A DNA stretch of 53,784 nt from Candidatus Cloacimonadota bacterium (GTDB taxonomy: Bacteria; Cloacimonadota; Cloacimonadia; Cloacimonadales; TCS61). Under the pieces are notes generated by a model. That model saw only the letters and a list, made by a program, of their open reading frames with translations, ran no database searches and had not been told where the DNA came from. Location: contig JAIPJH010000010.1 in assembly GCA_021734245.1 (NCBI GenBank), positions 1 to 53,784 of the forward strand, written 5' to 3'. Shown one piece after another: positions 3,054 to 15,917 of this stretch; the first letter of the stretch is position 1; each line of letters starts with the position of its first letter. Position numbers and translations under genes: made by a program.

Positions 3054-3070
3054 ATTTTTCCTTTATCATC

Positions 3071-3160
3071 GAACTTGCCTGAAAGCGAAGTCTTCAGGTA
3101 AGGACGGATGATCATTTATCAATTGTCCTTAACCCACACTTCGTTTTGGGTCAATTCCAG
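3071..3160 (+). repeat. REP-doublet palindrome, copy A (divergent)
   Basis: Two hairpins in inverted orientation: stem CCTGAA/TTCAGG near the left end and stem ACCCA/TGGGT near the right end. The outer flanks are GAACTTG and CAATTC, and the inner flanks are TAAGGA and TCCTTA. Compared with copies C-F both inner flanks changed together (TAAGAA became TAAGGA), and the first stem has a compensated base-pair swap. It lies between two EamA genes. Confidence 0.85.
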
Positions 3161-3164
3161 TTTA

Positions 3165-3587: not shown

Positions 3588-3605
3588 ATTTTTCCCTTTT
3601 TTCGT

Positions 3606-3692
3606 AATTGCCTGAATGCACAGGCTTCAGGTAAGAACAGATAAATATTTATAGTTGTTCTTAACCCAAACTTTCTATTGGGTCAAGACCAG
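3606..3692 (+). repeat. REP-doublet palindrome, copy B (overlaps the end of a gene)
   Basis: Stem CCTGAA/TTCAGG, inner flanks TAAGAAC/GTTCTTA, second stem ACCCAA/TTGGGT, right flank CAAGAC. Its right half, 3661-3692, encodes the last nine or so residues and the stop codon of the dehydrogenase gene on the opposite strand. Confidence 0.85.
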
Positions 3693-4818
3693 CTTCAGTC
3701 CTGCTAACTTTATATTTTATTCCTCTCTCTTCCTGATATTTCAACATTTTTTCCAGGCAGCCTGTTTCTGCTCCGACGAATTCGGGTGGATTTATCCCAA
3801 CTTTCTTAAAATCTCCATTCAAAATCAGATCAACCGCCGCTGTAGCAGAATAGCCTGTCGTTCTGGCCATAGATGAAATGCCGGTTTCTTCATCATATCT
3901 ATCCAAAAGATCATATTGATAGCAAACTCTCTTTTCCTGTTCTTTTCCGGCAATAATTATTTTCATCACAGTAAATTCCGGTTCATCTTTTTCCAGTTTC
4001 CACTGCTTGAAAAGCAGCTTTGCTGTCAGCTCGATCGGCTTGATCTTCCTGCCTTTTACTTCTATCTCATCTTCAGCAAAGAAACCGCTTTCACGCAGCA
4101 TTTTCATGTAATCGATATGACCGGGAAAACGCATGGTTTTTTCGATCATATTAGGAATTTTCATGGTGAAAAGCAGGGATCGCAGACCATCTGTATTGAA
4201 AGCTTCCAAAGTTCCGATCTCAGCGAATTCCATAAATTCTGGTTCGGAAAGAGCAGGCTTTGTAACCAATTTTCCATCTCTGATATATCTTGCCGGTCGC
4301 GTATACTCTTCTATCACATCGATGGGAGAGAACGGCGCTTTATATTGAAAGGGTAAGGTTCTTTTTTGCGGCAAGCCACCTACGTAACATTCATAACTTT
4401 CCACCTGCATCATGGCATTGTGATGTCCCAGGATCACATTTCCCATGCCGGGTGCTACCCCGCAATCCACGATTGCTATCAAATTCTTCGATTTTGCCTG
4501 CTCATCCAGTTCAAAACAATCTTCCGGAAAGAAAGAAATATCAACGATGTTTTTGCCGGATTCGATCACGGTTTTCGTGGTTTGAAATCCCATGAAACCC
4601 GGAACAGCATTTACCACCAGATCAGCTTTAGTTATAGCTTTTAGAATATTTTCAGCTTTGGAAAGATCGAGTTTTTCAATTGAAATGTTGTTTCTTCCAG
4701 CAACTGATTTGAGATTTTCTTTGCTTACATCAACCGAAAGAACTTTGTGCTTTTTTGCCAGATCCAGAGCAATTGCACTTCCCACCATACCACAACCAAG
4801 AACTGTGATTTTTGCCAT
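3661..4818 (-). CDS. Saccharopine dehydrogenase-family oxidoreductase (possible lysine 6-dehydrogenase)
   Basis: 385 residues. The N-terminal Rossmann fold opens with the dinucleotide-binding motif GCGMVGSA (residues 8-15), followed by VVNAVPGF and DCGVAPGMGN. The C-terminal half matches the saccharopine dehydrogenase C domain (ECYVGGLPQ, FNTDGLRSLL, KTMRFPGHIDYMKML). Length and layout match NAD(P)-dependent lysine dehydrogenases and related carboxynorspermidine/saccharopine dehydrogenases; the exact substrate is not determinable. The start is adjacent to a weak CAGGAGAAAC site. The last residues (GLDPIESLG) and the stop codon are supplied by REP copy B, so the native C-terminus was probably replaced when that element inserted. 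Confidence 0.85.
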   Translation of the reverse strand: MAKITVLGCGMVGSAIALDLAKKHKVLSVDVSKENLKSVAGRNNISIEKLDLSKAENILKAITKADLVVNAVPGFMGFQTTKTVIESGKNIVDISFFPEDCFELDEQAKSKNLIAIVDCGVAPGMGNVILGHHNAMMQVESYECYVGGLPQKRTLPFQYKAPFSPIDVIEEYTRPARYIRDGKLVTKPALSEPEFMEFAEIGTLEAFNTDGLRSLLFTMKIPNMIEKTMRFPGHIDYMKMLRESGFFAEDEIEVKGRKIKPIELTAKLLFKQWKLEKDEPEFTVMKIIIAGKEQEKRVCYQYDLLDRYDEETGISSMARTTGYSATAAVDLILNGDFKKVGINPPEFVGAETGCLEKMLKYQEERGIKYKVSRTEAGLDPIESLG

Positions 4819-5200: not shown

Positions 5201-5237
5201 AACTTTGCGAAGATCAAGAAAAGCAAGAAGTTCGAAA
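5201..5237 (+). repeat. Short dispersed repeat (GCGAAGATCAAGAAAAGC type)
   Basis: A 35-nt unit found again at 5571-5605 (nearly identical) and, more diverged, at 8539-8575. It appears at the junctions of the larger repeat blocks and is part of a mosaic rather than a gene. Confidence 0.7.
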
Positions 5238-5274
5238 AGATGAAACTTGGTAAAAACCCTCAGCCTCCGCAAGC

Positions 5275-5387
5275 GGAGACAGCTCCCTAACCAGGGAGCG
5301 AATTAGGAAATCTGAAAGAACAAAACCTCGCGAAGATCGAGAAAAAAGGTTTCGTGTAATTCGGTGAAAATCGGTGGCAAAATAAAG
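5275..5387 (+). repeat. Dispersed intergenic repeat type 3, copy 1
   Basis: About 110 bp, starting GGAGACAGCTCCCTAACC and ending in GTGGCAAAATAAA. A second copy lies at 8428-8539. It carries the hairpin GCTCCCT/AGGGAGC. Directly before it, CTCCGC/GCGGAG forms another perfect hairpin. Confidence 0.8.
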
Positions 5388-8170: not shown

Positions 8171-8427
8171 TAGAAATCTCCTTTTATAATATAGTTCACA
8201 AATTTCGAAACCGGTATTCTTTGTCCATTAAAATTTAAGAAATAAAACATCTCATAATTCTGATGTAATCTATAATTAATGTTGCATTTAGAATTTATGA
8301 ACGATTATTCAATTTATTGTTGGATCATTAAAAAATGTGCTTACTGATTTTTTCCAAACACTATTTAATTCAAATCTATGATAAGACTCAGAAACCTTGC
8401 AGCGCAAAATCTTCACCCTCCTCATAT
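8171..8427. other. AT-rich intergenic DNA, nothing recognised
   Basis: The region upstream of the acetyltransferase gene up to a type 3 repeat. It has no hairpin, RNA gene or convincing frame, and probably holds the acetyltransferase promoter. Confidence 0.5.
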
Positions 8428-8575
8428 GGAGACAGCTCCCTAACCAGGGAGCGAATTAGGAAATCTGAAAGAACAAAACCTCGCCAAGATCAAAAAAATG
8501 GGTTTCGTATAATTCGGTGAATATCGGTGGCAAAATAAACCTTGCGAAGGTCGAGTAAAGCAAGAAGTTCGAAAA
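8428..8575 (+). repeat. Dispersed intergenic repeat type 3, copy 2, with short-repeat tail
   Basis: 8428-8539 repeats 5275-5387 (GGAGACAG ... GTGGCAAAATAAA), and 8539-8575 repeats the short unit of 5201-5237 and 5571-5605. A small hairpin AACCTT/AAGGTT (8574-8588) overlaps the polA stop codon. Confidence 0.8.
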
Positions 8576-8586
8576 CCTTCGAAAGG

Positions 8587-11349
8587 TTAGTGTGCTTCGA
8601 ACCAGTTTTCGCCGATTCCGATATCTACAACCAGCGGTACGATTTCCGAATATTCTTGGGGAAGAGCATTTTCCATTTCAGTTTTTATCAGCATCTTTGC
8701 TTCTTCTAATTTTTCTTTTTTCACTTCAAAAACCAATTCATCATGAACCTGCATGATCATTTTGATATCATCGTTATCTTCTATCTTTTCCTGCAATTTG
8801 ATCATGGCGATTTTTATGATATCGGCAGCACTGCCCTGAATCGGCATATTTGTGGCAACGCGAGCTGCTTCACTCACTCTCTGACGGTTGGAACTGCTCA
8901 AACCAGGAAGAAACAGTTTTCTGCCAAAGATCGTTTCGGCATAACCTTTTCTGGTTGCATCTTCTATGCTTTTTTGAATGTGATTCTGGATTGTGGGAAA
9001 TTTACTGAAATAATTATCAATGAATTCCTGAGCTTCCTTGCGCGTAATTTCCAATTCATTGGACACGCGAAAAGCTCCCATGCCGTACATCAAACCAAAA
9101 TTGATGATCTTGGCATAACGTCGCTGATCTGCTGTAACTTCCTCCTGCGGAATTTCATAAATAATGCTGGCTGTTTCGCTGTGAATATCTTTTTTCTGCT
9201 GGAAAGCATTGATCATTTTTTCATCTTTGGATAGCATTGCCAATATGCGCAATTCGATCTGGGAATAATCGGCAGCTATCAGGATTTTATCATCACCTTC
9301 TGCCACAAAAGCGTACCGAATCTCTTTGCCCATTTCGCTGCGAACAGGAATGTTCTGCATATTAGGATTTGTACTGGAAAGCCTGCCGGTGGAAGCCACA
9401 GTTTGATTGAACGAAGAATGAACTCGACCCGTTTCTGGATTTACAAGTTTGGGAAGAGCAGTAACGTAAGTAGATTCCAATTTGGACAGCATGCGATATT
9501 CCATCAATTTCCGGGCAATTTCATGATCTTTTGCCAATGTTTCCAGAACAGTTACATCGGTTGAATAACCTGTCTTGGTTTTCTTGACCGGTGGAATTCC
9601 CAGATCATCAAACAACACCTTTCCCAGCTGTTGCGTGGAATTTATATTAAATTGCGAGCCGGCAATTTCATAGATCTCTTTGGTCAATTTCCCGATGCGT
9701 TTTTGATTTGCCTTAGACATTTTATCCAAAATATCCACATCGATTTTCACACCGTTCTGTTGCATTTTTGCCAGCGAATAAAACAGCGGCATTTCTATAT
9801 TTTTGAAGAGGTTGTAAAGATCTGCTTTGATCAGTTTATCTTCGTAAATTTTATAAAGTCGAAATGTGATATTGGCATCCTCAGCAGCATAATCACAAGC
9901 CTGGCTGGTAGGAACCAGATCGAACGTGATCTGCTTCTTTCCCACTCCGATCAAATCTTTTATCGGGATCATTTCGTGATCGAATTCTTCTTTGCTGCAG
10001 GCATCCAGAGAATGGCGCGAAGTTGGACGCAGCAGATAATCAGCAATCATTGTATCGAAGATTTCATTCTCGATCTTCCAACCTGCTCTTTCCAGAACCA
10101 GGTAATCATATTTAATGTTGTGGGCAATTATCAGTTTTCCTTTTAAAATTTTTGGTAATTCATCCAAAACCATTTCTACTGGAACATTATCTGCCATTTG
10201 ATGTGCAATTGTAATGTAATAAGCTTTCTCAGAATTTGTGCAGATTGAGATTCCTACCAGTTTTGCCAGCAGCGGATCGGTGGAAGTGGTTTCGGTATCC
10301 AAAGCTACAACATCAGCTTCTTTAATTTCCTTCAGCAGGTTTTGGAATGCTTCTATTTTGTCGATCAGGATTGCTTTAAAATTGATTCCTGTTTTTGGAG
10401 GAGTTTTTGCTGAATCCTGAGAAATAAAATCAAACTCTTCTTTGAATTCTTCCTTTTTTTCTTCAATTTTATTTTGGATTACCGGATCATTGAAAGTAAG
10501 AATTTTTTTGGCAGTATTTCTCAATTCATATTCTTTTAAAAAAGGTATGGAATTTGCCAACTTAGCTTTGTCAAAACAGAAAGTTCGCTCATCTGCAATA
10601 TCTATTGGAACATCACGAACAATGGTTGCCAGTTTTTTGGAAAGAAATGCTTCTTCCTTGTATTCGATAAGTTTTTTCTTAGTACCTTTTGCTGAAATAT
10701 TTTCGATATTTTCATAGATATTTTCCAGAGTTTTGTATTCTTTTATAAGCTTTGTTGCGCCTTTTGGCCCGATTCCCTTCACGCCGGGAATATTATCGGC
10801 ACTGTCGCCGCAGATCGCCAGATAATCGATGAACTGCTTGGGTTTCAAACCATATTTTTCTATTACAGCTTCTTCATCCATCACCATTTCTTTGGATGGA
10901 TCATAAAGCAAAACATTATCATCGACAAGTTGGGCAAAATCTTTGTCACCCGTCACGATAATCACATCAAATTCATGCTTGAATTTTTCGGCCAGAGTTG
11001 CCAGAACATCATCTGCTTCGTAGCCGGCACAGGAAATTTCATTCAGTCCGATCAGTTTAAAAAAATCTTTGATCGGTTCCACCTGCTCGTGCAGTTCTTC
11101 CGGGGCTGGAGGACGATTTGCTTTGTAGGTGTCAGTAATTTCATGTCGGAAAGTTTTTTCTCTTCGATCAAAAGAGATCGCCACATGATCCAGATTATAA
11201 CGTTCCACCAAACGCAGAAAAGCATTGATGGTACCGTAAATAGCGCTGGTATTTTGTCCTTTGCTGTTATAAAGCGGATTGCGGATAAAAGCAAAGAATG
11301 ATCTATAAATGATCGCTGTTCCGTCGATTAAAAATAACTTTTTTTTCAT
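8587..11349 (-). CDS. polA: DNA polymerase I
   Basis: 920 residues from the ATG at 11349, chosen because AGGAG lies 8 nt upstream; a TTG two codons earlier is too close. The N-terminal 5' nuclease domain has LFLIDGTAIIYRSFF, the metal-binding GYEADD and IVTGDKD, and GVKGIGPKGA. The proofreading exonuclease is intact: VALDTETTSTDP (DxE), AHNIKYD and YAAEDA. The polymerase domain has motif A (AADYSQIELR), motif B (RRYAKIINFGLMYG, with Phe at the sugar-discriminating position) and motif C (QVHDELVFE). It acts in replication gap-filling and repair. A REP copy and the RAYT gene lie just upstream. Confidence 0.98.
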   Translation of the reverse strand: MKKKLFLIDGTAIIYRSFFAFIRNPLYNSKGQNTSAIYGTINAFLRLVERYNLDHVAISFDRREKTFRHEITDTYKANRPPAPEELHEQVEPIKDFFKLIGLNEISCAGYEADDVLATLAEKFKHEFDVIIVTGDKDFAQLVDDNVLLYDPSKEMVMDEEAVIEKYGLKPKQFIDYLAICGDSADNIPGVKGIGPKGATKLIKEYKTLENIYENIENISAKGTKKKLIEYKEEAFLSKKLATIVRDVPIDIADERTFCFDKAKLANSIPFLKEYELRNTAKKILTFNDPVIQNKIEEKKEEFKEEFDFISQDSAKTPPKTGINFKAILIDKIEAFQNLLKEIKEADVVALDTETTSTDPLLAKLVGISICTNSEKAYYITIAHQMADNVPVEMVLDELPKILKGKLIIAHNIKYDYLVLERAGWKIENEIFDTMIADYLLRPTSRHSLDACSKEEFDHEMIPIKDLIGVGKKQITFDLVPTSQACDYAAEDANITFRLYKIYEDKLIKADLYNLFKNIEMPLFYSLAKMQQNGVKIDVDILDKMSKANQKRIGKLTKEIYEIAGSQFNINSTQQLGKVLFDDLGIPPVKKTKTGYSTDVTVLETLAKDHEIARKLMEYRMLSKLESTYVTALPKLVNPETGRVHSSFNQTVASTGRLSSTNPNMQNIPVRSEMGKEIRYAFVAEGDDKILIAADYSQIELRILAMLSKDEKMINAFQQKKDIHSETASIIYEIPQEEVTADQRRYAKIINFGLMYGMGAFRVSNELEITRKEAQEFIDNYFSKFPTIQNHIQKSIEDATRKGYAETIFGRKLFLPGLSSSNRQRVSEAARVATNMPIQGSAADIIKIAMIKLQEKIEDNDDIKMIMQVHDELVFEVKKEKLEEAKMLIKTEMENALPQEYSEIVPLVVDIGIGENWFEAH

Positions 11350-11370
11350 TATCAAAACTCCTATTAGTCC

Positions 11371-11466
11371 GAACTTGCCATTCTTGCCTCAATGCGCAGG
11401 CTTGAGGTAAGAATGGATATAATTTCCACTGTTCTTAACCCAAACTTCGTTTTGGGTCAAGTCCAG
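11371..11466 (+). repeat. REP-doublet palindrome, copy C (3' side of the RAYT gene)
   Basis: Stems CCTCAA/TTGAGG and ACCCAAA/TTTGGGT with inner flanks TAAGAA/TTCTTA and right flank CAAGTC. The left end carries a 12-nt extension in which the ACTTGCC start is partly doubled. It ends 8 bp from the stop codon of the transposase gene. Confidence 0.9.
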
Positions 11467-11474
11467 TCGTCTTA

Positions 11475-12050
11475 TTATTCAAACAATAATTTATTAAACT
11501 CTTTTTCTTCAATATATTCTTCATATTCTCTAATTGTTTGTTCATAATTTTCTAATTCATCTGCGAATATTTCTTTAAACTCAGGAAAAAATAACCTTGA
11601 TTTTCCTTTCCCAGACCAACCAAGATAATTTGAATACTTCCAATCAACTAAATCTTTTACCAATCCAGCTTTAATAGGATTGAAATGTATATATTTACAT
11701 AATTGTACAAAATAATTATTTGATTTTACACGAATATGTTGAAGTGGCCCTTGAAAAAGCGTTCCTTTCCTTTTATATTTAGAATTAAAATGCAAAACAT
11801 ACGGACGGAAACTGGAATCAAAAAGTTTGAATACAGGAATATTACCATCCTGCCGTAAAAAGAAATGAAAGTGATTTGGCATTAAACAAAAAGCTACTAT
11901 CGATGCAGGAATTTCGGTAAGTTTGTTTTCGAATCGAGATAAAAAATACTCATAATCTTCATTTTCGTTAAATAGTAATTCCTGATTTACAGCTCGATTG
12001 TAAATATGAAAAAACTCATCTTTAACAAATTCTTCTTGTTTGCACCTCAT
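11475..12050 (-). CDS. REP-associated tyrosine transposase (RAYT, Y1/HUH superfamily)
   Basis: 191 residues, the normal size for RAYTs. The HUH metal site is NHFHFFL (His60 and His62), after the LMPN segment usual for this family. The catalytic tyrosine is Tyr120 within CKYIHFNPIKAGLV, and GTLFQG (96-101) matches the conserved loop that precedes it. RAYTs are single-strand DNA endonucleases/transposases that recognise REP hairpins and are thought to spread them. Here the gene is bracketed by copies C and D of a two-hairpin palindrome that occurs six times in the window, which is the expected RAYT context. It has no obvious SD. Confidence 0.93.
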   Translation of the reverse strand: MRCKQEEFVKDEFFHIYNRAVNQELLFNENEDYEYFLSRFENKLTEIPASIVAFCLMPNHFHFFLRQDGNIPVFKLFDSSFRPYVLHFNSKYKRKGTLFQGPLQHIRVKSNNYFVQLCKYIHFNPIKAGLVKDLVDWKYSNYLGWSGKGKSRLFFPEFKEIFADELENYEQTIREYEEYIEEKEFNKLLFE

Positions 12051-12070
12051 TAATCTTTCTCCACTGTTCC

Positions 12071-12158
12071 CAGACTTGCCTCAATGCGCAGGCTTGAGGT
12101 AAGAATGGCTTCATTCCACACTGTTCTTAACCCAAACTTCGTTTTGGGTCAAGTCCAG
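12071..12158 (+). repeat. REP-doublet palindrome, copy D (5' side of the RAYT gene)
   Basis: The reference copy. REP 1 is GACTTG (12073), stem CCTCAA/TTGAGG, then TAAGAA (to 12105). An 18-nt linker follows. REP 2, on the other strand, has the same GACTTG and TAAGAA flanks around stem ACCCAAA/TTTGGGT (12124-12155). It lies 20 bp upstream of the transposase start codon. Confidence 0.92.
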
Positions 12159-12210
12159 CACTTTTTCGATTTGAATTCTGGCGGTTTTTGTGTCTATGAA
12201 ATTTTTTGCT

Positions 12211-12238
12211 TTGACATCACATTTCCTTTTGATAATAA
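12211..12238 (+). promoter_or_regulatory. Possible promoter of the aldehyde ferredoxin oxidoreductase gene
   Basis: A consensus TTGACA at 12211-12216 is followed after 16 bp by TAATAA. A perfect TATAAT at 12243-12248 is 26 bp away, too far to pair with it. It lies between REP copy D and the gene's AGGAGA site. Confidence 0.35.
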
Positions 12239-12268: not shown

Positions 12269-14143
12269 ATGGAAGCAATGATTAAAGTTTTAGTAGTAAA
12301 TGTGAATACTTCATTTTATCGAGTAGACCGCTACAAGCTCGGAGATTTTTTTGGCCCTGTCGATCTGGGCTTGCATCTGGCAGGAAAATTGAACAGCTTA
12401 AATATTGGAACAGGATTGTTTGCTGGTTCGATCCTGCCTGGATCAAATCGCCTGATCTTTTCCGGTTTTTCTCCCTGCTGGGGAGGATTTTATATTTCTT
12501 CCATGGGTGGTGCCGGTTTGGAATTCAATAACTTGGGAATCAACCTGCTGGCAATCGTCGGAAAAGCTGCTCAACCATCTATTTTATATCTGAATCGTGA
12601 TCACGGCGAAGAAATCCAGTTGGAAATTTATCCTGTAAATTCAGCTAATATCTGGAATCAAAAGGAAAAAGGTGTTTACTCGATGATGGATCAAGTCTAT
12701 AAAAATTACGGAAAGAATTTCGGTTCCAATCCCCGCATTTTAGCAGTTGGGCCTTCCGCAGCAAAAACCGATATGGGAGCGATCTGTTCTGTGCCAATTA
12801 AAAACGATAAACTTACACATATCGATACCTGGGCAGGTAGAGGAGGGTTTGGTTCCAAGCTGTATCAGGAACATGGAATTGCTTCGATCATTTATGGCGG
12901 GACCCATCTGGAAGAAGATTTTCGCGATCGTTCTGTGGCTGATAAATGGTTCAAAGACAAGTATAATCAAATTCTGGCAGTAAAAGATTTTGAAGCAACA
13001 ACCAAGTACCGCTTCGATCCTAAATTTCAAACCGGTGGTACTCTGGGAGTGAATTATGCTAACGTTTCAGGAAAATTGATTGCCTTCAATTATAAAAGTA
13101 TTTATTACTCGGAAGAAGAAAGGTTGGATATTCATAAAAAATTCATTTTAGATCATTATCTGAAGCAATTCAATGAAGAAACAATAAAAACGAAACAGCA
13201 GAAAACCTGCGGAGAACCATGCGCAGCTTTGTGCAAGAAGATGCACGGAAAATACAAAAAAGATTATGAACCTTATCAAACCCTGGGACCACTTTGCGGA
13301 ATTTTCGATCAACGAGCTGCAGAAAAACTGGTTCATCATGCCGATATGCTGGGCTTTGATGCAATTTCCGTCGGAGGAGTTTTAGCCTGGTTGATGGAAT
13401 GCGTGAACGAAGACTTGCTTACTTTAGAAGAAGTTGGCATTTCCCAAAAACCTAAATTCGATACCAAGGATTTTGGTGTGATAGAAGATTCCAAGAGAAA
13501 TGCTGAAATTGGTATTGAATTGCTGGATTCGATTATTCAGAAAAGAGGAATTTTAGACTTCCAGGAAGGAGCCCGGAAATTTGGCCGCCGACTTTCCCGC
13601 AAAAAAGGGAAAGCAATACTGGATAAATTTATTTACATCGCTTTTGCCCGAAAAGGCTGGATGGTTCCCAATCAATATTGGACTCCCGGCGTTCTTTCGC
13701 CAATGGCGATAATGGGAAAATATTACATGTACTATGGAAACGAATTCTTCAAACCCAGAGATCTGGGAAGATTGGCTGCTGAAAGATTTATGGCCGAACT
13801 GGTGATGGATAATCTTGGTATTTGCCGATTTCATCGAGGCTGGGCGGAAGAAATGCTGCCGGAGATCATGGAAAAAATTTACCAGCTGAAAGATGATTTT
13901 ATAAATAGTGTAAATATGACGGCTTCCCGCATCAACAGCCGAAACTCCAGCGTATTCTGGGAGTCGGAAAGAGATTTTGATTTCGTAATGAAGTTTATGG
14001 AAAGAAAGATCGAGATCGAAAAAGATGACGATCCGTATTTGAAAGAATGGTTAGAAAAATTCAAGAACAATAAATTTGAAGCTGGTTTGGAATTCTGGTA
14101 TGAAATTCATAAAGGGATTCAAGAATCGTTGAAAGAATTTTGA
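12269..14143 (+). CDS. Aldehyde ferredoxin oxidoreductase-family tungsten/molybdopterin enzyme
   Basis: 624 residues, the usual length for AOR enzymes, which oxidise aldehydes to carboxylic acids with ferredoxin, or run in reverse. The N-terminal domain has the pterin-binding SMGGAGLEFNNLG and WAGRGGFGSKL segments. The [4Fe-4S] cysteines are CGEPCAALC plus a fourth in DNLGICRFHRGW. The spacing of the first three is CX3CX3C rather than the CX2CX3C of the Pyrococcus enzyme, and the GGFGSKL region is shorter than usual, so it belongs to a divergent branch with unknown substrate. The start has AGGAGA 5 nt upstream. It is flanked on both sides by REP elements, with copy E starting 10 bp after the stop. 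Confidence 0.9.
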   Translation: MEAMIKVLVVNVNTSFYRVDRYKLGDFFGPVDLGLHLAGKLNSLNIGTGLFAGSILPGSNRLIFSGFSPCWGGFYISSMGGAGLEFNNLGINLLAIVGKAAQPSILYLNRDHGEEIQLEIYPVNSANIWNQKEKGVYSMMDQVYKNYGKNFGSNPRILAVGPSAAKTDMGAICSVPIKNDKLTHIDTWAGRGGFGSKLYQEHGIASIIYGGTHLEEDFRDRSVADKWFKDKYNQILAVKDFEATTKYRFDPKFQTGGTLGVNYANVSGKLIAFNYKSIYYSEEERLDIHKKFILDHYLKQFNEETIKTKQQKTCGEPCAALCKKMHGKYKKDYEPYQTLGPLCGIFDQRAAEKLVHHADMLGFDAISVGGVLAWLMECVNEDLLTLEEVGISQKPKFDTKDFGVIEDSKRNAEIGIELLDSIIQKRGILDFQEGARKFGRRLSRKKGKAILDKFIYIAFARKGWMVPNQYWTPGVLSPMAIMGKYYMYYGNEFFKPRDLGRLAAERFMAELVMDNLGICRFHRGWAEEMLPEIMEKIYQLKDDFINSVNMTASRINSRNSSVFWESERDFDFVMKFMERKIEIEKDDDPYLKEWLEKFKNNKFEAGLEFWYEIHKGIQESLKEF

Positions 14144-14153
14144 CAAGAAAATC

Positions 14154-14239
14154 AGATTTGTTTGAATGTGCAGGCTTGAGGTAAGAATGGCTTCATTCCA
14201 CACTGTTCTTAACCCAAACTTCATATTGGGTCAAGTCCA
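14154..14239 (+). repeat. REP-doublet palindrome, copy E (left stem decayed)
   Basis: From the GCAGGCTTGAGG segment onward it is almost identical to copies D and F, but the left half of stem 1 has degenerated (TTTGAA instead of CTCAA). It forms a head-to-tail tandem with copy F. Confidence 0.88.
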
Positions 14240-14244
14240 ATACT

Positions 14245-14333
14245 CCAGACTTGCCTCAATGCGCAGGCTTGAGGTAAGAATGGCTTCATTCCACACTGTT
14301 CTTAACCCAAACTTCGTATTGGGTCAAGTCCAG
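14245..14333 (+). repeat. REP-doublet palindrome, copy F
   Basis: An intact copy: GACTTG, CCTCAA/TTGAGG, TAAGAA, the same 18-nt linker as copy D, TTCTTA, ACCCAA/TTGGGT, CAAGTC. It is 5 bp from copy E and just upstream of the HipBST operators. Confidence 0.92.
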
Positions 14334-14343
14334 CGATGAAATT

Positions 14344-14357
14344 TTCGTTAAAATGAA
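14344..14357. promoter_or_regulatory. Probable HipB operator 1
   Basis: TTCGTTAAAATGAA, an inverted repeat with one mismatch. It is followed by AAT just as in operator 2 at 14406-14419. The two are 62 bp apart and flank the likely promoter region of hipBST. Confidence 0.6.
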
Positions 14358-14405
14358 AATATTGCTTGCATCTCTCACAAACATAATTAATTTTTACATC
14401 AGTTA

Positions 14406-14419
14406 TTCATTAAAATGAA
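14406..14419. promoter_or_regulatory. Probable HipB operator 2
   Basis: TTCATT-AA-AATGAA, a perfect 14-bp palindrome ending 12 bp before the hipB start codon and almost touching its GAGG ribosome binding site. Its 17-bp extended sequence matches operator 1 at 16 positions. Autorepression by the HTH protein HipB is the likely purpose. Confidence 0.65.
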
Positions 14420-14431
14420 AATGAGGCTAAA

Positions 14432-14641
14432 ATGAGAATTGATGAGCTGGGTAAATTGATTAAACAACGAAGAAAAATCTTGCGAATCAACCAACAGGAT
14501 CTGGCTGAGATTTCCGAGATCGCTTTGCACACGATCAGCGACATCGAATCGGGAAAAGGTAATCCAACTTTACTGGTTATAAATAAACTTTGTGAAATAC
14601 TGGGTTTAGAACTTCAGATCAAAGTTAAAGGCAATGAATAA
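14432..14641 (+). CDS. hipB: HipB-like XRE-family antitoxin/DNA-binding regulator
   Basis: 69 residues, one Cro/C1-type helix-turn-helix domain: IDELGKLIKQRRK, the recognition region QDLAEISEIALHTISDIESGK and the closing PTLLVINKLCEILGL. This is the usual size of HipB. It should bind the palindromes at 14344 and 14406 and repress the operon, probably with the other two proteins. The start has GAGG 5 nt upstream. The stop overlaps the hipS start (TAATG), implying coupled translation. In characterised HipBST modules HipB also helps neutralise the kinase, although HipS is the main antitoxin. Confidence 0.9.
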   Translation: MRIDELGKLIKQRRKILRINQQDLAEISEIALHTISDIESGKGNPTLLVINKLCEILGLELQIKVKGNE

Positions 14642-14958
14642 TGCAAGCTCAAGTTTATTATAAAAATAAATTTGCTGGAATTCTCAGTAAAATAGATTCA
14701 GGTTTTTCTTTCGTTTACGATGATAGTTTTTTATCAGATTCAGATTCCAAATCAATCAGTCTTACACTTCCTAAGCAAAAAAAAGAATTTCAATCTCAAT
14801 ATCTTTTTCCTTTTTTTCATGGTTTACTCACCGAAGGTTTTGCTTCTCAAATCCAATCTCGCAAATTAAAGATCGATGAAAACGATTATTTCAAAAGACT
14901 TATTGAAACTGCAAACAATGACACAATAGGTTGTGTAACCATCGGTGAAAACAAATGA
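14641..14958 (+). CDS. hipS: HipS-like antitoxin (HipA N-terminal subdomain as a separate protein)
   Basis: 105 residues, matching the N-subdomain 1 that opens classical HipA: VYYKNKFAGILSKIDSGFSFVYDDSFL, then SISLTLPKQKKEF, YLFPFFHGLLTEG and the terminal DTIGCVTIGE. In single-chain HipA this piece is fused to the kinase; here it is a separate gene placed between the HTH gene and the kinase gene. That is the hipB-hipS-hipT order described for the E. coli O127 HipBST system, where HipS is the antitoxin. It overlaps hipB by one base and hipT by four (ATGA). Confidence 0.88.
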   Translation: MQAQVYYKNKFAGILSKIDSGFSFVYDDSFLSDSDSKSISLTLPKQKKEFQSQYLFPFFHGLLTEGFASQIQSRKLKIDENDYFKRLIETANNDTIGCVTIGENK

Positions 14959-15917
14959 ATAGATGCTTTGGTTGCTTTAAAAAAATTCGCTCGAAACATT
15001 ACTGTAATGCATGTTCACGAAGATTGTTTGATGGCAAAATTCCCACATTAAATTTGAAGAAAACTGATTTTCAAACTGTTAGATACGAACTGATCGACCA
15101 TTTTTCCATTTCGGGAGTGCAGGATAAAATCTCATTGAAATTAGTAAGAAATGAACTGCAACCCACATCCGAAAATGGCGAATATATTTTAAAACCGGTA
15201 CCTGAACTAAATGTTCCAAAATTGCAAAATGATATTCCTGCCAACGAACATCTGACGATGCAGATTGCCAGACAAATCTTCAAGATCAAAACGGCAGAAA
15301 ATGCCTTGATTACTTTCCAAGATGAAGAATTCGCTTATATAACCAAGCGTTTCGATAGAAACAACAAAGAAAAATTACGACAGGAAGATTTTTGTCAGTT
15401 AACCGAAAAATCACCTGAATCACATGGCAAAAATTTCAAATACGACGGAAGTTATGAAAAGCTCGGTAATGTGATAAAAAGATTTTGTGCTGCCAGTAAA
15501 ATTGAAATTGAAAAACTATTCAAACTAATTCTATTCAATTATGTTTTTGGTAATGGTGATTCTCATCTCAAAAACTTTTCATTAATTGAAACTCAAAACG
15601 AAGACTTTATTCTTTCCCCAGCTTACGATCTGACCAACACAAATATTCATTTCCCAAATGAAAGCAGAATGGCTTTGGAAATGTTTGACGATTTTGAATC
15701 GAAATTTTATAGAAATAATGGATTTTCTGGAAAAGAAGATTTTTTAAAATTAGCTGAGTTTTATGAAATAAAAGAAAAACGTGCAATCAAAATGATAAGA
15801 GAATTCCCTGAAAAGAAAGAAAGTGTTAATAAATTGATCGAAGCTTCTTTTTTAAGCGAAAAGGCTAAAGAAAAATATATGATTGTTTTTCATGATAGAT
15901 TGAAAGCGATTAGTTAA
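14955..15917 (+). CDS. hipT: HipT-like serine/threonine kinase toxin
   Basis: 320 residues. The N-terminus has four cysteines in two CxxC pairs (residues 4, 7, 17, 20), a likely zinc ribbon often seen in short HipA kinases. Then comes the SISGVQDK loop (from residue 51), whose two serines match the SIS autophosphorylation motif of E. coli HipT. The catalytic loop is GNGDSHLKN (Asp202) and the metal-binding motif AYDLTN (Asp225). HipT of E. coli phosphorylates tryptophanyl-tRNA synthetase; whether this one does is unknown. The kinase residues are complete, so it is probably active. The start overlaps the hipS stop. Confidence 0.9.
   Translation: MNRCFGCFKKIRSKHYCNACSRRLFDGKIPTLNLKKTDFQTVRYELIDHFSISGVQDKISLKLVRNELQPTSENGEYILKPVPELNVPKLQNDIPANEHLTMQIARQIFKIKTAENALITFQDEEFAYITKRFDRNNKEKLRQEDFCQLTEKSPESHGKNFKYDGSYEKLGNVIKRFCAASKIEIEKLFKLILFNYVFGNGDSHLKNFSLIETQNEDFILSPAYDLTNTNIHFPNESRMALEMFDDFESKFYRNNGFSGKEDFLKLAEFYEIKEKRAIKMIREFPEKKESVNKLIEASFLSEKAKEKYMIVFHDRLKAIS

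Follow-up and report, generated by a model that had tools for sequence, protein, structure and literature searches.

The DNA stretch of 53,784 nucleotides analyzed in this study, hereafter called the window, very probably carries a RAYT/REPIN system (REPtron) of a new, non-GTAG kind. It is placed among the RAYT/REPIN systems because the protein family, the fold, the bracketing of the transposase gene and the dispersed inverted pairs of hairpin units all agree with such a system, and its units are not canonical REPs because they lack the GTAG foot. The observations behind this assignment are the family and predicted fold of the protein, the covariation of the units, the dispersed copies, the bracketing, the tracking of transposase lineages by the repeats and the positions shared with congeners whose elements have other stems. 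The points counted against it are the lack of GTAG, a copy number in the twenties, the elements of relatives G009 and G032 that have no close RAYT, and a PF01797 score below its cut-off. The window is contig C10 and represents 1.7% of a 3.1-Mb assembly of 137 contigs (genome G000), and its nearest named matches are from Candidatus Cloacimonadota. That this phylum has been little studied for REPs and RAYTs, as a sequence-only reading of the window had held, agrees with the literature searched, in which no paper combined Cloacimonadota with REP, RAYT or tyrosine transposase; this absence is weak, as subscription papers were outside the scope of the search.

The gene at positions 11475–12050 on the minus strand has an ATG start and an intact reading frame and encodes a RAYT-type Y1 HUH transposase of 191 amino acid residues. 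The polypeptide contains the RAYT motifs NHFH (residues 59–62, with H60 and H62), FQG, LQH (residues 103–105) and YIHFNP (residues 120–125, with Y120). In a 26-row alignment of relatives, the invariant residues include H60, H62, N89, G96, Y120, N124, P125 and S140. The profile of this 26-member family had a sole credible PDB match, the E. coli REP transposase 4ER8 (E = 5.6e-10). Similarly, a Foldseek search with an AF2 model of the protein (pLDDT 89) returned 4ER8 as the best match (E = 3.9e-9, 18% identity), followed by the ISDra2 and IS608 transposases. Thus, the RAYT identity proposed from the HFH site and Tyr120 is borne out by the match to 4ER8 in profile and fold and by the invariance of these residues. 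The product of 11475–12050 is a RAYT by its motifs, its predicted fold and the dispersed elements that flank it. It is nevertheless a diverged relative. Its PF01797 score was 21.6 bits, just below the curated cut-off of 23, and it is kept out of the NCBIfam equivalog NF047646 (REP_Tyr_transpos) because its score of 60.3 bits falls short of the cut-off of 80. The Pfam search revealed no HTH match in the protein, and PADLOC matched no defence system. The closest relative, from genome G012, was 58% identical. No near-identical copy was found in G000, where other matches were at most 39% identical. The residue at the position of Q104 is Gln in 27 of 28 close relatives and mostly Lys or Arg in other sets. 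Because the region neighbouring the Q104 equivalent contacts GTAG in the E. coli RAYT (PMC6006769), the Q104/LQH region may be regarded as a candidate specificity loop.

The RAYT gene lies between two of six copies of an element of about 90 bp, each of which consists of two inverted REP-like hairpin units. Copy A (3069–3161) is between two EamA-like genes. Copy B (3602–3693) overlaps the 3′ end of a minus-strand gene at 3661–4818, which we take from its translation to be saccharopine-dehydrogenase-like; the final codons of this gene, stop codon included, are supplied by the element (window 3661–3693). Copy C (11378–11467) separates the 3′ side of the RAYT gene from polA, and copy D (12070–12159) is on the 5′ side of the RAYT gene; their distances to the ends of the RAYT gene are 7 and 19 bp. 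Copy E (14152–14241) directly follows an AOR-like gene and is in tandem with copy F (14245–14334), which is 99% identical to D. The bracketing of the RAYT gene by C and D and the six two-hairpin copies in 11 kb had been correctly read from the sequence. All six copies are on the plus strand, where they scored far above the minus strand with a covariance model. The single orientation stated earlier therefore holds for 6/6 copies; however, they amount to about five independent sites, as E and F are in tandem, and the orientation is that within the contig, not that relative to replication.

The covariance model was built from 15 copies, and matches on both strands of one site were counted once. 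At E < 1e-3, it matched the 3.1-Mb assembly at about 23 distinct places. Six of these are in the window and about 17 outside it, as expected of the dispersed inverted hairpin pairs (REPIN/BIME-like) and of the further copies that the earlier reading had called for. The recurrence of the element is not due to chance, because so many places were found at this threshold and six of them fall within 1.7% of the genome. Distinct complete elements, in which a unit is paired with an inverted unit as in a REPIN or BIME, numbered 26. The identities among elements within G000 ranged from 65 to 89%. In addition, the window contains a second repeat family unrelated to the GACTTG element. It comprises 38-bp AACTTTGCGAAGATCAAG units, with a 134-bp stretch repeated at 5253–5386 and 8406–8539 (90% identity) and further occurrences at 5201, 5571 and 8538.

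The units were compared among the elements of G000 and about a dozen relatives. Each unit consists of a variable outer clamp of 3–4 bp, an invariant GA/AA double mismatch, GACTTG opposite YRAG, a variable stem and a loop. For instance, the first unit of copy D (12070–12108, plus strand) has a CCA/TGG clamp, the GA/AA mismatch, CTTG/TAAG and a CCTCAA/TTGAGG stem, and the second, inverted unit (12121–12158, minus strand) has a CTG/CAG clamp, the same mismatch and CTTG/TAAG, and an ACCCAAA/TTTGGGT stem. The hairpin core described earlier was thus confirmed, but the hairpins are longer than described, since the pairing extends beyond the core to CCA/TGG and CTG/CAG. In the relatives, the clamps are mostly CAA/TTG and TTG/CAA; naming left and right units by these two clamps would be unsafe to carry over to the window genome. 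Among 69 units, clamp positions 1–4 were Watson-Crick pairs in 84–93%, compared with 33–50% after shuffling (0/2000), and clamps that had been slid paired in just 14–28%. Among 23 aligned units, 94.7% of the cells were paired and both sides had changed in 10 of 14 pairs. Their covariation score was 0.62, against 0.28 for shuffled units and at most 0.11 for slid ones, a comparison with shuffles that is inflated by relatedness among units. The clamps and stems therefore covary strongly across genera.

The 5′ GACTTG is nearly invariant. The sequence opposite it is more variable (YRAG, G-T pairs being allowed), and such a pattern would fit the reading of the GACTTG strand by a protein. The GT[AG]G tetranucleotide expected at the foot of a REP hairpin is absent from the units, which have no conserved foot and carry GACTTG/YRAGAA inside the stem. 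The earlier view of the units as ordinary REPs was accordingly dropped. Its description of two inverted halves, each with GACTTG, a hairpin of a different stem and TAAGAA, stood except for copy C. The outer arm of this copy is CCATTCTTG instead of CCAGACTTG, by which the GA/AA mismatch has become a perfect palindrome with AAGAATGG. A perfect palindrome of this kind is the outcome that would be expected of quasi-palindrome correction on a folded strand. The single-strand folding of copy D gave z = −3.6. The lowest-energy single-strand fold of a whole element is a four-way junction, and the core pairs fit this junction and the unit hairpins equally well. However, clamp pairing was 92% in the unit hairpins and 17–22% in the junction, and the unit hairpin is preferred as the evolved structure because the clamps do not pair in the junction. 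Both structures may form.

Similar to the window RAYT, most Y1 genes of the phylum are bracketed by repeats of their own. The two 250-bp flanks of each Y1 gene were compared with each other and scored against those of 47 control genes. In the Cloacimonadota set, 34 of 38 Y1 genes exceeded the 95th percentile of the controls (median score 71 vs. 10), and the Y1 genes of other phyla had short shared flanks with a median score of 16. Between genomes, flank similarity tracked RAYT identity (57 RAYTs; rho 0.27; 0/500 permutations). Flank scores above 20 were found in 71% of the RAYT pairs at 60–80% identity and in 0% of those below 40% identity, some of the sharing between close RAYTs possibly reflecting plain synteny. 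Co-resident RAYTs had flanks in common in 1 of 65 pairs. The repeat type thus follows the transposase lineage and not the host genome. Moreover, nine RAYTs in the tree have the window-type unit in their flanks, all nine belonging to one 13-row clade (support 98/93), and the RAYT of G012 is bracketed by elements of the same design with different stems. A further case outside those nine is L024 on C59, a distant Y1 gene of G000 with a window-family element beside it. Among 59 relatives searched with the element model, 15 of the 17 genomes with elements have a RAYT of the window kind (Fisher p = 1e-4; p = 0.012 within the family). The predicted correlation between element and RAYT therefore holds except in two incomplete genomes, G009 (75% complete) and G032 (83% complete), in which elements but no close RAYT were found. 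In G009, a window-type element also forms a six-copy tandem array with a period of about 98 bp beside a pyk-like gene (L137, C208:1883–2433).

Nine Y1 transposase matches were found in G000 (L018–L026, on C27, C31, C73, C7, C96, C123, C59, C10 and C102 in that order), and most of these genes are surrounded by distinct hairpin repeats or arrays of their own. For instance, the gene on C73 lies in tandem CCTTGAAAG/CTGAAAAGCTCTC repeats of about 83 bp, with 32 genome matches to the repeat, and the gene on C7 is found with TTTCCG repeats.

A known system close to it is the E. coli REPtron (TnpAREP with the Y and Z2 REPs, group 2; PDB 4ER8; PMC8266576, PMC6006769). Both have a Y1 HUH protein with HUH and YIHxNP motifs, a gene flanked by inverted pairs of units with different stems, imperfect-palindrome units with two conserved mismatches, and a REP family of their own for each RAYT. 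The window RAYT is, however, 18% identical to the E. coli protein in the structural match and possesses FQ instead of W with E/Q. Its units lack the GTAG foot and have the conserved GACTTG inside the hairpin above the outer clamp, and the element is present in tens of copies, whereas E. coli has hundreds. The HUH, FQ and Y motifs (NHFH, FQ, YIHFNP) place the protein near, but not exactly with, the TIRYTs or TnpAY1 subclass 2.1, whose motifs are NH[YF]H, FQ and Y[IV]HLNP (PMC3733652, PMC6006769). The short flanking repeats of the Patescibacteria relatives of the window RAYT (median score 16) also resemble TIRs. Subclass 2.1 proteins reportedly exceed the 191 residues of the window RAYT and carry an HTH-like domain at the C terminus. 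Moreover, Quentin et al. found no REPs for subclass 2.1 (PMC6006769), whereas the window RAYT has dispersed two-hairpin elements. Similar to the window units, the flanking hairpins of TnpAY1 subclass 2.6 and class 3 are atypical, lack GT[AG]G and have copies elsewhere in the genome (PMC6006769). Different from the window RAYT, subclass 2.6 has WQ and YIH[QN]NP and occurs mainly in Bacteroidetes, and class 3 is characterized by Y...Q and a CnGA foot; this comparison covers the published descriptions of the two groups. The IS200/IS605 elements IS608 and ISDra2 share the catalytic fold and have hairpins at both gene ends. However, the window RAYT has Y---NP and not the Y---Q of class 1, its gene is not itself repeated, and the hairpin elements are dispersed without the gene. 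It was already known that each RAYT has its own REP family (PMC6006769) and that orthologous RAYTs of Pseudomonas and Stenotrophomonas are found with different REP classes (PMC3686654). As far as the literature searched shows, four features are new: the unit with its clamp and double mismatch, the phylum, how many pairs are co-resident, and the exchange of stems at shared positions.

Further comparisons with the congeners G001 and G002 showed that elements occupy the same places in these genomes but have other stems. Site A holds a tandem of other-stem elements in G001 and a relic in G002, and site B holds an other-stem element at the same place in both. In G002, the polA-pyk interval lacks a RAYT and contains a single other-stem element. 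The 59 bp that follow this element match the sequence after copy D (12163–12217, plus strand) at 93% identity and in G002 lie between the single element and pyk. In G000, the order of this interval is C-RAYT-D-AOR-E-F-HTH/HipA-pyk, so that the RAYT gene is between two elements where G002 has one. The polA-side region and pyk are adjacent in G002, and in the window an AOR-like gene, E and F, and an HTH and split HipA module lie between them (12269–15917). An element on C40 is also present in G001. Two elements of G000 at this site (C40:8544–8634 and 9441–9521, L202), whose second hairpin units are identical, surround a HicA/HicB-like toxin-antitoxin pair, and the orthologous place in G001 has one element and measures 236 bp compared with about 1.2 kb with HicAB in G000. 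The identities between orthologous elements of G000 and its congeners were 39–60%, those of the flanking DNA 73–80%. The six copies in the window had been taken to suggest local spread; this is only partly right and, as recent insertion, not supported, since an element also occupies sites A and B and the polA site in G001 and/or G002.

Just outside copy C is a probable relic foot of an older element, CGAACTTG (11370–11377, plus strand). This foot and its flank can be aligned gap-free with the foot of the lone element of G002, a short match of 17/24 by eye. Another apparent older foot lies beside copy B (TTCAGTCCTGC vs. TCAAGTCTTGC, also a short match). The feet of older elements thus seem to persist beside copies B and C. 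Because the congeners have other-stem elements at the same places, it is suggestive, from four sites and short relic matches, that sequences have been replaced at positions that are themselves old. The different stems at shared positions also suggest that new element types mostly replace older elements or land in them. A fuller reading, which we consider rather doubtful, is that the positions are inherited and their hairpins overwritten by the type that the resident RAYT recognizes, with older elements serving as landing or exchange sites at which accessory genes (RAYT, toxin-antitoxin) are gained. For copy C8:45651, neither G001 nor G002 had an orthologous site that could be aligned. A search with the joined flanks of copy C28:673 gave no empty site; it matched an element-free paralogue on C19 and another on C16 in which a repeat of a different family takes the place of the element, both too imprecise for a target or duplication to be called. 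Hence, there is no direct view of insertion. C16 carries this other family where C28 carries the GACTTG element, and at loci L005, L006 and L007 (C28, C97 and C60) as well as at C16:14312–14361, hairpin families that differ from one another form mosaic blocks in the equivalent place after genes with similar C-terminal ends.

The element-gene-element arrangement could also have arisen by homologous recombination. The elements would then be made by the RAYT but old, and the enclosed genes (RAYT, HicAB on C40 and perhaps the AOR-like gene) would have come in by recombination between element copies and not by RAYT-catalyzed transposition. This possibility, to which we give well below an even chance, is compatible with a REPtron and differs from it in the origin of the present arrangement. 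It is consistent with the single congener element at the polA site of G002, without RAYT, and at the C40 site of G001, as well as with the identical second units of the HicAB-flanking copies. The relic foot beside copy C suggests instead a landing inside an older element; moreover, two or three sites only are concerned, and loss in the congener is possible. It is highly improbable that an unrelated DDE transposase moves the elements as ordinary MITEs with terminal inverted repeats and that the RAYT is a bystander inserted between copies. Their inversely repeated ends (GACTTG...CAAGTC) and their size of about 90 bp, which is common among MITEs, speak for this, but RAYT bracketing is general in the phylum and lineage-specific. 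In addition, the conserved parts are two distinct hairpin units, with clamp pairing inside each unit and not between the ends, half-elements with a single unit occur in G000, and no consistent flanking or target duplication was seen by eye at the copies.

Covariation would equally fit RNA, and the elements could be transcribed hairpins conserved as terminators, mRNA stabilizers or regulators. The window copies are all extragenic or at gene ends, with E and F directly 3′ of a gene, and such functions have been proposed for REPs elsewhere (PMC3733652). However, copies A–C are antisense to their genes, E and F are sense and D is between divergent genes, and the element had no Rfam match up to E = 1. 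An RNA role would also leave unexplained why the repeat type tracks the RAYT lineage. As the main explanation, an RNA function is improbable, yet as a secondary role it is compatible with mobility.

For the REPtron preferred here, a mechanism can be proposed in which catalysis and movement are qualified as putative, because they, including single-strand cleavage and target choice, are taken from the family. As a member of the Y1 HUH superfamily, the RAYT would be a single-strand DNA endonuclease and ligase. Where a strand is exposed, probably on the template for lagging-strand synthesis, the two halves of the 90-bp element would each fold into a clamped hairpin. The RAYT would read its own hairpin type, cleave next to the hairpin via Tyr120 and re-join the strands, by which copies of the element would be made or exchanged.

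Most of what is known of RAYT/REP systems concerns GTAG-type repeats in Proteobacteria, Cyanobacteria and Bacteroidetes. Members of the Cloacimonadota, of which there are few cultures, have several RAYT lineages per genome, most with a hairpin family of its own, and in one such lineage the recognition design of the repeat differs: the hairpin is clamped, has an invariant double mismatch and lacks a foot. Natural pairs of enzyme and hairpin are numerous and provide ready variation for studying how an HUH nuclease reads a hairpin, with Q104 as a candidate specificity position. How REPs spread and persist could be tested at the shared positions whose stems have been exchanged, and if the overwriting of inherited positions were true, the RAYT would drive a concerted, in-place turnover of hairpins.
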